Source: Lichenibacterium ramalinae (lineage in GTDB: Bacteria; Pseudomonadota; Alphaproteobacteria; Rhizobiales; Beijerinckiaceae). From it: a stretch of 64,000 nt of DNA. The position numbers were made by a program, and so were the translations under genes. The first letter of the stretch is position 1. Each line of letters opens with the position of its first letter. The DNA is taken from NCBI RefSeq assembly GCF_004137085.1, contig NZ_QYBC01000017.1:62001-126000 (forward strand). The letters are read 5' to 3'. Positions 39,608 to 51,902 of the stretch are shown piece after piece. The notes below the pieces were generated by a model that saw nothing but the letters and a program-made list of their open reading frames with translations, searched no databases and was not told where the DNA came from.

Positions 39608-40633
39608 TCAGCGCGGCGTGGGTTCGGTGCTGGCCCCCTCGGGCGCCGGCGCGTCGCGGTGCTCGACGTGGCCGCCGAAGCCGAAGCGCATGGCCGACAG
39701 GGCCTTCTCGCCGAACGTGTGCTCTTCGCGCGAGCGGAAGCGGGCATAGAGGGCGGCCGACAGCACGTTGGCCGGCACCGCCTCCTCGATGGCGGCCTCG
39801 ATGGTCCATCGCCCCTCGCCGGAATCGTCCACCACGCCCGAGAAATGCTCGAGCTTGGGGCTCGCCGTCAGCGCCGAGGCGGTGAGGTCGAGCAGCCAGG
39901 ACGAGATCACGCTGCCGCGGCGCCAGACTTCGGCGATGTCCGTGAGGTTGAGGTCGAAGCGCTCGCTCTCGGTGAGTTCGGGAGAATCCTTCTTCTTCAG
40001 GATGTCGAAGCCCTCGGCATAGGCCTGCATCAAGCCGTATTCGATGCCGTTGTGCACCATCTTGACGAAGTGGCCGGCGCCGGTCGGGCCCGCGTGGATG
40101 TAGCCGCGCTCGGCACGGGTGTCGGTGAGCTTCTCGCGGCCCGGCGTGCGGGGGATGTCGCCGATCCCGGGCGCCAGCGCGTCGAGGATGGGGTCGATGG
40201 TGTCGACCGCTTCCTTGGCGCCGCCCACCATCATGCAATAGCCGCGCTCCAGGCCCCAAACGCCGCCCGACGTCCCGACGTCGACGTAATGGATGCCCTT
40301 CTCCTTCAGCGCCTGGCCGCGATGGATGTCGTCCTTGTAGAACGAATTGCCGCCGTCGATCAGGATGTCGCCGGAGGACAGGAGCTTGCCGAGCGCGTCG
40401 ACGGTCTCGCCCGTGATGGTGCCGGCGGGCAGCATGACCCAAACGACGCGCGGCGTTTCGGTGAACTTCGACACGAGGTCCTCGAGCCCCTCGGCGCCGG
40501 CGGCGCCGGCCTCGACGAGGTCGCCGACCGCCCGCGCGTTGCGGTCGTAGGCGATGCACTGGTGTCCATGCTTCTGGAGACGCCGGACGATGTTGCCGCC
40601 CATCCGGCCGAGACCGATCACGCCGATTTGCAT
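39608..40633 (-). CDS. gnd: 6-phosphogluconate dehydrogenase, short NAD-type
   Basis: Oxidative decarboxylation of 6-phosphogluconate to ribulose 5-phosphate. The 341-residue length and pattern fit the short, usually NAD-preferring (YqeC-like) form rather than the roughly 470-residue enzyme. Motifs are [50 protein letters not shown] and [19 protein letters not shown]. The ATG at 40633 has AAAGG eight bases upstream. The frame is open for another 64 codons through a 15-bp repeat array, which is thought to be untranslated. Confidence 0.93.
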
Positions 40634-40646
40634 CGCTGAAGCCTTT

Positions 40647-40750
40647 GTCGAGAGTTGCGTCGTCGAGAGGTGCTTGATCGAGAGGTGCTTGGTCGAGAGG
40701 TGCTCGGTCGAACTTGCGTCCTCGAGACTCGCGTCGTCGAGACTCGCAGC
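40647..40750 (-). repeat. 15-bp tandem repeat array directly upstream of gnd
   Basis: Seven diverged units in tandem (plus-strand consensus GTCGAGAGGTGCTTG): 40647-40661, 40662-40676, 40677-40691, 40692-40706, 40707-40720 (14 bases), 40721-40735, 40736-40750. The three central units differ at only one or two positions. The array begins 13 bases upstream of the gnd ATG and is in phase with it; if translated it would read as five-residue repeats such as STKHL. Confidence 0.8.
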
Positions 40751-40909
40751 ACCTTCAGCCCGGCCCGGCCCCTCGGATGGCGGGGCTGCGGCGGACGGCA
40801 GGCGCCGGCCTGAGCCGGTCTTCACGATGTAGGGACCATCGCCGCCGTGATGCGCGATGGGGTGCAGGGGCGGGACCGCCGTCCCTGCACGGAAGCTGGA
40901 AGCGCCGCT

Positions 40910-42034
40910 TCAGGCCGCCTTGCTGAACTCGCTGCGGCGTTTCTTCACGCCGCCGATCAGGTTGTCGAAGGCTTCCTCGAACTTCTTGATGCCGTCGAGC
41001 ACCAGTTCGTGGGTGATGTCGTCGAGGGAGATGCCGAGCTTTTCCAGGGCCTGCAGCGTCGCCTCGGCGCCGGCCACGTCGCTCTCGATCGAGTCCTTGA
41101 TGGCCGTGCCGTGGTCGCGGAAGGCCTTCATCGTGGCGGGCGGCATCGTGTTCACGGTGTCGCGGCCGATGATGTTGTCGACGTAGTAGGTGTCGGGCAG
41201 GGACTTGTCCTTGGTGCCGGTCGACGCCCACAGCAGCCGCTGCGGATGCGCGCCCTTGGCGGCCAGCTTCTCCCAACGCGGGCCCGAGAAGATCGCCTTG
41301 GAGCGCTGGTAGGCGCGCTTGGCGTTGGCGATGGCGACCTTGTGGAGGGTCTTCTCGACCAGTGCCGGGTCGGCGTCCTTCAGGGCGGTGATCTTGCTGT
41401 CGGCCGCCGCGTCGATGCGGCTGAGGAAGAAGCTCGCCACCGAAGCGACGCGGGATACGTCCCCGCCCTTGGCGGCCAGTTCCTCCAGGCCCGCGATATA
41501 GGCCTGGGCCACGTCCTCGTAGGCCTTCACGGCGAAGAGCAGCGTCACGTTGACGTTGATGCCTTCCGCGATCGTGGCCTGGATGGCGGGGGTGCCGGCG
41601 TCGGTGCCGGGGATCTTGATCATCAGGTTGGGGCGGTGCACGGCGGCCCAAAGGCGCTTGGCGTCGGCCTTGGTGGCATCCGTGTCGTTGGCGATGTTGG
41701 GCGCCACCTCGAGGCTGACGAAGCCGTCGGCGCCGTTGGCCGCCTCGTAGACGCTCCGGAAGGCGTCGGCGGCTGCCTGGATGTCGGCGATCGCGATGGT
41801 CTCGTAGACCGTCATGTCGTCGGCCTTGCCGTCGCCGAGCATCTGCTTCAGCACGTCGTCGTAGTCGTGGGTCGAGCCGATCGCCTTCTCGAAGATCGAC
41901 GGGTTCGAGGTCAGCCCCTTGAGCCCGTCCTTTTCGATGAGCCCGGCCAGTTCGCCGGACGACATCAGGGTCTTGTGGAGGTCGTCGAGCCAGGGGGACT
42001 GGCCGCAGGCTTCGAGGTCTTTCATCGGGTTCAT
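40910..42034 (-). CDS. tal: transaldolase
   Basis: Transfers a dihydroxyacetone unit between sugar phosphates in the non-oxidative pentose phosphate branch. The ATG at 42034 has GAGGAG upstream, and the 374 residues fit the long (mycobacterial/cyanobacterial-type) transaldolase. The Schiff-base Lys lies in LMIKIPGTDAGTPAIQAT; GLTSNPSIFEKAI and RLLWASTGTKDKSLPDTYYV are characteristic. It is not fused to glucose-6-phosphate isomerase as in some relatives. A strong hairpin separates it from tkt. Confidence 0.95.
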   Translation of the reverse strand: MNPMKDLEACGQSPWLDDLHKTLMSSGELAGLIEKDGLKGLTSNPSIFEKAIGSTHDYDDVLKQMLGDGKADDMTVYETIAIADIQAAADAFRSVYEAANGADGFVSLEVAPNIANDTDATKADAKRLWAAVHRPNLMIKIPGTDAGTPAIQATIAEGINVNVTLLFAVKAYEDVAQAYIAGLEELAAKGGDVSRVASVASFFLSRIDAAADSKITALKDADPALVEKTLHKVAIANAKRAYQRSKAIFSGPRWEKLAAKGAHPQRLLWASTGTKDKSLPDTYYVDNIIGRDTVNTMPPATMKAFRDHGTAIKDSIESDVAGAEATLQALEKLGISLDDITHELVLDGIKKFEEAFDNLIGGVKKRRSEFSKAA

Positions 42035-50447: not shown

Positions 50448-51674
50448 ATGGACGACAGAGTGACCGGCGCGACCGTCGCCGGAACCGGCCGCGCCCCCGT
50501 GCCGCGCCTGAAGCCCGTCATGGCGGTGCTGGGGGCCGCGGCCCTGTCGCACGGGATGAACGACCTCCTGCAGAGCCTCATCCCCGCCGTCTACCCCATC
50601 CTGAAGCAGGAGTTCACGCTGAGCTTCGGGCAGATCGGGCTCATCACCCTGGTGTTTCAGCTCACGGCGTCGCTGCTGCAGCCCTTCGTCGGGCTCTACA
50701 CCGACCACCGGCCCTTGCCCTATTCGCTCCCGGTCGGCATGGCGGTGACGCTGTCGGGACTGCTGCTGCTGGCGATGGCGCCGAGCTTCGAGGTGATCTT
50801 GCTGGCCGCCGGCCTCGTCGGCGTCGGCTCGTCGATCTTCCACCCCGAAGCGTCGCGGGTGGCGCGCCTCGCCTCAGGCGGGCGTTACGGCTTCGCGCAA
50901 TCGCTGTTCCAGGTCGGCGGCAACGGCGGCACGGCGCTCGGGCCCCTGCTCGCCGCCTTCATCGTGGTGCCGCGCGGTCAGGCGAGCATCGCCTGGTTCG
51001 CCCTGGTGGCGCTGGCCGCCATCCTGGTTCTCTCCGCCATCGGCCGGTGGTATGCCGCCCGCCTCGGCGAGGTGCGCGGCAAGCCCGCCGCGCCCGCCGT
51101 CGCCGGGCTGCCACGTCGCAAGGTGTTGATGGCCGTGACGGTGCTGATGCTGCTGGTCTTCTCGAAGTACATCTACCTGTCCAGCCTCACCAGCTACTAC
51201 CCGTTCTACCTCATGACCAAGTTCGGCATCGGCAAGCAGGACGCGCTGGTCCACCTGTTCATCTTCCTCGGCGCGGTCGCGGTCGGCACCATCGTCGGCG
51301 GCCCGGTGGGGGACCGGTTCGGCCGCAAGCTCGTCATCTGGGGCTCGATCCTGGGCGTGCTGCCCTTCACGCTGATGCTGCCCCACGCCGACCTGTTCTG
51401 GACCACCGTCCTGTCGGTCATCATCGGCGTGATCCTGGCGTCGGCCTTCTCGGCCATCCTGGTCTTCGCCCAGGACCTTGTGCCCGGGAAGGTCGGGATG
51501 ATCTCGGGCCTGTTCTTCGGCTTCGCCTTCGGCATGGCGGGGCTCGGCGCCGCCGTGCTCGGCATGGTGGCCGACCGCACCAGCATCACCTTCGTGTATC
51601 AGGTTTGCGCCTTCATGCCGGTGCTCGGCCTGCTGACTTACTTCCTGCCCGACATGGAACGCCGGGCCCGCTGA
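50448..51674 (+). CDS. MFS transporter, fosmidomycin resistance (Fsr) type
   Basis: The 408-residue product has about 12 membrane segments. Family features are LSHGMNDLLQSLIPAVYPIL near the first segment, GLYTDHRPLPYSLPVGM, VGVGSSIFHPEASRVAR and PVGDRFGRKLVIWGSILG, which match the Fsr group that exports fosmidomycin in Escherichia coli. The physiological substrate is not known. The ATG at 50448 follows a purine-rich ribosome binding site; the longer upstream frame lacks family sequence. The stop codon lies in a 35-bp tandem duplication. Confidence 0.88.
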   Translation: MDDRVTGATVAGTGRAPVPRLKPVMAVLGAAALSHGMNDLLQSLIPAVYPILKQEFTLSFGQIGLITLVFQLTASLLQPFVGLYTDHRPLPYSLPVGMAVTLSGLLLLAMAPSFEVILLAAGLVGVGSSIFHPEASRVARLASGGRYGFAQSLFQVGGNGGTALGPLLAAFIVVPRGQASIAWFALVALAAILVLSAIGRWYAARLGEVRGKPAAPAVAGLPRRKVLMAVTVLMLLVFSKYIYLSSLTSYYPFYLMTKFGIGKQDALVHLFIFLGAVAVGTIVGGPVGDRFGRKLVIWGSILGVLPFTLMLPHADLFWTTVLSVIIGVILASAFSAILVFAQDLVPGKVGMISGLFFGFAFGMAGLGAAVLGMVADRTSITFVYQVCAFMPVLGLLTYFLPDMERRAR

Positions 51675-51739
51675 CGCCGCGCCAGCGGCTTCAGGGCGTG
51701 CAGAGCTGACGCCGCGCCGGCGGCTTCAGGGCGTGCAGA
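51670..51739 (+). repeat. 35-bp tandem duplication between two convergent gene ends
   Basis: Copies 51670-51704 and 51705-51739 differ at one base (CGCCAGCGG versus CGCCGGCGG). The first copy contains the transporter stop (51672-51674). The second holds the end of the convergent lipoprotein gene, whose last residues QLCTP and stop are thus present twice on the minus strand (stops at 51726 and, in a second copy, at 51691). Confidence 0.9.
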
Positions 51740-51902
51740 GCTGGTCGCCGCCCATGCAGGGCAGCCAGCGCGGCTGACCGTTCGGCCGGTCCAGCGCCCC
51801 CGAGGGGTGGTCGCGCACCAGGCGGTCCGGGCCTGTGGCGCAGCCCGCCAGGGTGGCCAGCACGAGGGCCGCGAGCGCGGCGAGGGCGAAGGGGCGTGTC
51901 AT
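51726..51902 (-). CDS. very small lipoprotein of unknown function
   Basis: A 58-residue product with a clear signal and lipobox: MTRPFALAALAALVLATLAG then Cys21. The mature part is only about 38 residues (GALDRPNGQPRWLPCMGGDQ) and contains two further Cys. The ATG at 51902 was chosen because it opens the signal peptide; an upstream in-frame start adds residues without signal character. Its 3' end was copied by a 35-bp tandem duplication. The family was not recognised. Confidence 0.65.
   Translation of the reverse strand: MTRPFALAALAALVLATLAGCATGPDRLVRDHPSGALDRPNGQPRWLPCMGGDQLCTP

Follow-up and report, generated by a model that had tools for sequence, protein, structure and literature searches.

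Introduction

Minisatellites are by definition head-to-tail copies of a unit of about 10–60 bases. Bacterial intergenic minisatellites and VNTR loci serve in MLVA typing. Repeat tracts in phase-variable promoters and leaders change by slipped-strand mispairing. Here, we analysed a tandem array upstream of gnd in a stretch of 64,000 nucleotides of the Lichenibacterium ramalinae genome (in the following called the window; positions are counted from its first base).

The gnd array resembles intergenic minisatellites and VNTR loci in that it consists of short tandem units in a spacer, is lineage-restricted, has diverged copies and belongs to a genome with many such loci. VNTR loci are defined by a unit number that differs between strains; our comparison covered one genome per species, and the five congeners lack the array. 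As in phase-variable promoter and leader tracts, the repeats are located upstream of a start codon, but the units of the gnd array are longer and diverged, and no promoter elements of the sigma-70 type were found in 40560–41000. We conclude that the array is very probably a lineage-specific intergenic minisatellite that is untranslated and affects gnd little or not at all.

Table 1. Features of the tal-gnd region (window positions)
Feature	Position	Strand	Remark
gnd, short-type 6-phosphogluconate dehydrogenase, 341 aa	39608..40633	(-)	Position 1 of the models NF007161 and TIGR00872 falls on the ATG
tal-gnd intergenic spacer, 276 bases	40634..40909	(-)	182 bases in G002, 121 in G001
AAAGGCTTCAGCG, with likely ribosome-binding site AAAGG	40634..40646	(-)	13 of 13 bases common to congener G002, last 10 to congener G001
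Tandem array, seven diverged units of ~15 bases (e.g. CTCTCGACCAAGCAC)	40647..40750	(-)	Cores 2 and 3 are 14 bases apart
Open frame of 64 codons preceding gnd, from GTG 40825	40634..40825	(-)	Judged untranslated

Results and discussion

Structure and position of the array

An earlier note on this DNA had described seven diverged units at about 40647–40750 that end 13 bases before gnd, and our analysis agrees with that description. On the minus strand, the tal stop ends at 40910 upstream of gnd, and the gnd ATG (40633) follows 13 bases beyond the end of the array. A TCGA core is present in every one of the seven units. Tandem Repeats Finder gave a period of 15 and 6.5 copies, with matches at 79% and indels at 7%. 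At lag 15, the array had an identity of 0.73 across 105 bases, the top value among the 105-base segments of the 64 kb (steps of 5, lags 7–35). None of 2000 dinucleotide shuffles of the array attained this value (largest shuffle value: 0.51). The array is real, and a chance pattern is excluded.

The array thus shows what defines a minisatellite, namely head-to-tail copies beyond chance. It is also placed outside coding sequence: it is flanked by the tal stop on one side and the conserved gnd ATG on the other, its phase is broken, and an extension of gnd is not conserved. The codon score over the array, which is best of six in the gnd frame, points in the opposite direction and is considered below.

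Comparison with congeners and wider relatives

We searched 60 genomes, including that of L. ramalinae itself, with gnd as query and obtained a match in 57, many of which are merely distant dehydrogenases. The closest congeners by gnd identity are G002 (91%) and G001 (89%), and in both of them gnd is preceded by tal, as in L. ramalinae. The 10 bases next to the gnd ATG (GGCTTCAGCG) agree in all three genomes, and the agreement with G002 extends over 13 bases. The tal-gnd spacer comprises 182 bases in G002 and 121 in G001 versus 276 here; the remainder of these two spacers neither aligned to the L. ramalinae spacer nor contained a tandem array. In none of the five congeners examined did the 300 bases preceding gnd contain an array. 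Absence in all relatives had been named beforehand in the earlier note as an argument for a neutral expansion, and by that criterion the result argues for one.

Repeat rows were detected in three of 106 gnd upstream regions (≤300 bases); the two outside L. ramalinae end 197 and 220 bases away from the gene. Among these 106 regions, which stem mostly from distant relatives and partly from the best 80 of at least 589 matching stretches, an array adjoining gnd occurs only in the L. ramalinae genome. The named relatives in this set are those best 80, from which our own or very near records are perhaps missing; they have ~54–71% identity and are therefore distant. Excluded from the set were L028–L030 (distant dehydrogenases, 36–39%) and L012 (gnd cut at the contig end). 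The gene start of G004 was taken from another contig (L178). The region of L023, with only 30 bases, was removed for its shortness, so that 106 of 107 regions remained.

When the array DNA was compared with 298 genomes of the family, including our own, five matched at E 0.001. The four matches outside L. ramalinae (L150–L153) extend over 21–48 bases and, by length and E-value, were taken as chance. A search of literature titles and abstract openings found no array before gnd, which does not exclude that one exists in print.

Tandem arrays elsewhere in the genome

With the 200 bases that precede the gnd ATG as query, no second array was found in the L. ramalinae genome, and the best other spacer matches reached 36.5 bits (E 0.012). 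When up to two mismatches were allowed, the unit pattern and its reversed control occurred equally often in this genome (61+71 and 61+72, respectively). Outside the array, the unit is present as an exact single copy on contig C2.

Other tandem arrays are frequent. Our sample of the genome (1.264 Mb: the window and 60 stretches from eight large contigs) contained 69 non-overlapping arrays scoring ≥80 (54.6 per Mb), of which 23 had ≥3.4 copies. The corresponding numbers were seven arrays (17.6 per Mb), one with ≥3.4 copies, in 0.398 Mb of G001 and two (5.0 per Mb), again one with ≥3.4 copies, in 0.400 Mb of G003; the small sample of G002 (0.140 Mb) had none in either class. The samples of G001 and G003 consisted of 20 evenly spaced stretches each; among the 20 stretches from G002, 14 were complete short contigs. 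The number of tandem arrays per Mb is about three times or more that of the congener samples, which are not matched to ours, and a species-level excess is possible. GC content alone fails to explain the difference from G001 because it is nearly equal in the two (0.705 in G001 vs 0.713). Given the many arrays in our sample, the gnd array is one of many in a repeat-rich genome.

The units of the listed arrays look unrelated by eye. Four of ten arrays called non-coding have 16-base units, which break a reading frame. These calls come from a rough home-made gene caller, and two adjacent arrays of L211, perhaps also that of L160, are probably coding despite the call. Three further arrays were compared with the two close congeners. 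At L163, no array is present at the corresponding place in G001 or G002. At L222, there is none beside the G002 ortholog, and a close G001 ortholog was not found. In L160, other repeats occur at the same place in both G001 and G002, which gives the lineage-specific picture no support; not every array of this genome is therefore lineage-specific. The array at L222 (3357–3522) has a 16-base unit in 10.4 copies with 98% matches. In G002, a repeat of two copies occurs about 600 bases upstream of the place equivalent to L163, but it is unrelated.

Origin of the array and possible effects on gnd

We propose that the array arose in the tal-gnd spacer through repeated duplication, probably by replication slippage, of ~15 bases that immediately precede the gnd ribosome-binding site. 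Substitutions and the deletion of one base would then have made the copies diverge. The array may be transcribed, though not translated, if a common transcript covers tal and gnd. It is probably neutral, although neutrality is beyond what a sequence can show.

Alternatively, the array could be a variable-number repeat leader, in which slippage alters the unit number beside the ribosome-binding site and thereby tunes gnd translation or mRNA stability. The position of the array, immediately ahead of the ribosome-binding site, makes an effect on translation physically possible, and its short unit is present in seven copies. We nevertheless regard this explanation as unlikely. The divergence of the units (79% matches) should lower slippage, the array is absent in the five congeners examined, and many further tandem arrays occur in the same genome. 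Moreover, the predicted fold of the RNA from the array into gnd was equalled or exceeded in stability by 109 of 200 shuffles (z 0.12). We found no sigma-70-type promoter or terminator in 40560–41000 and no match to Rfam families in 40400–41100 up to E 1. The array thus has neither the family match nor the structure beyond chance that would characterize a structured cis-regulatory RNA leader. The suggestion that it tunes gnd expression, also made in the earlier note, is possible but gained no positive support from these results. Still less probable, in our estimation, is a wider scenario in which a burst of short tandem-array births set one of them against the gnd ribosome-binding site, with the unit number tuning the oxidative pentose phosphate flux.

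The open frame upstream of gnd

The frame from GTG 40825 is open through the array into gnd, as had been noted before; with 64 additional residues, the protein would comprise 405 instead of 341 aa. Translation of this frame as an N-terminal extension with five-residue repeats would be consistent with its openness and with the codon scores, but we consider it highly improbable for several reasons. Both NF007161 and TIGR00872, the best-matching family models, start at ATG 40633 even when the longer frame is scanned, and the 64-residue extension had no match in Pfam up to E 1. The AAAGG motif is located eight bases upstream of the gnd ATG, and no ribosome-binding site was found by eye before GTG 40825. 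These data support the earlier view that the array is most likely an untranslated leader or spacer and that gnd starts at its own ATG. The program-made list of open reading frames puts the gnd start 64 codons too early.

The reading phase within the array gives the same answer. The array had been called 'in-phase', and most of its units are indeed spaced by 15 bases, but a spacing of 14 between cores 2 and 3 breaks the phase. Along the array, the TCGA cores are spaced by 15, 14, 15, 15, 15 and 15 bases, and their phases relative to the gnd ATG are 2, 2, 0, 0, 0, 0 and 0. One base is absent between units 2 and 3, which shifts the reading phase of the unit, so that units 1 and 2 would encode a different pentapeptide from the later units. 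Stop codons are absent from the array in all three minus-strand frames, which keeps the frame open; two of the three plus-strand frames are open as well. The open frame is thus weak evidence for coding. In G002, an in-frame stop precedes gnd by 22 codons. The frame before gnd in G001 is open over 52 codons, but its sequence is unrelated and its first part lies within the end of tal. A coding repeat should keep its phase and be conserved as protein; in the array, the phases shift, and the congeners lack it.

Codon scores, based on the codon use of four genes of the window, were −0.18 bits per codon in the gnd frame over the array, the best of six, and −0.78 to −1.95 in the other frames. The gnd gene itself scored well above this (+0.68 bits per codon), and GC at third codon positions was 0.77 in the array versus 0.92 in gnd. 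The score of the array leans towards coding, but seven copies of a single unit hardly amount to an independent sample.

Finally, tandem protein-binding sites (operators) controlling gnd would agree with the seven copies of the TCGA core but hardly deserve credence, since no promoter-like site was found in 40560–41000 (sigma-70 type only), a spacing of 15 puts the sites off one face of the DNA helix (~10.5 bases per turn), the array is absent in congeners, and no second such array was found in the L. ramalinae genome.

Implications and further repeats in the window

On its own, the array is of little importance. Should its unit number turn out to vary, it would be a marker for strain typing. 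It also shows how a coding extension can be mimicked by a frame that stays open across a GC-rich repeat.

The rest of the tal-gnd spacer gave only short matches elsewhere in six genomes of the genus, the best being 34 bases in G001 (89%). This match overlaps the region of an inverted repeat, GTGCAGGG ... CCCTGCAC, which is located in the spacer at 40862–40890 and is present as a single copy in the window. The top-scoring tandem repeat row of the window (score 141) is located at 51670–51751 and has a 35-base unit in 2.3 copies with 93% matches.
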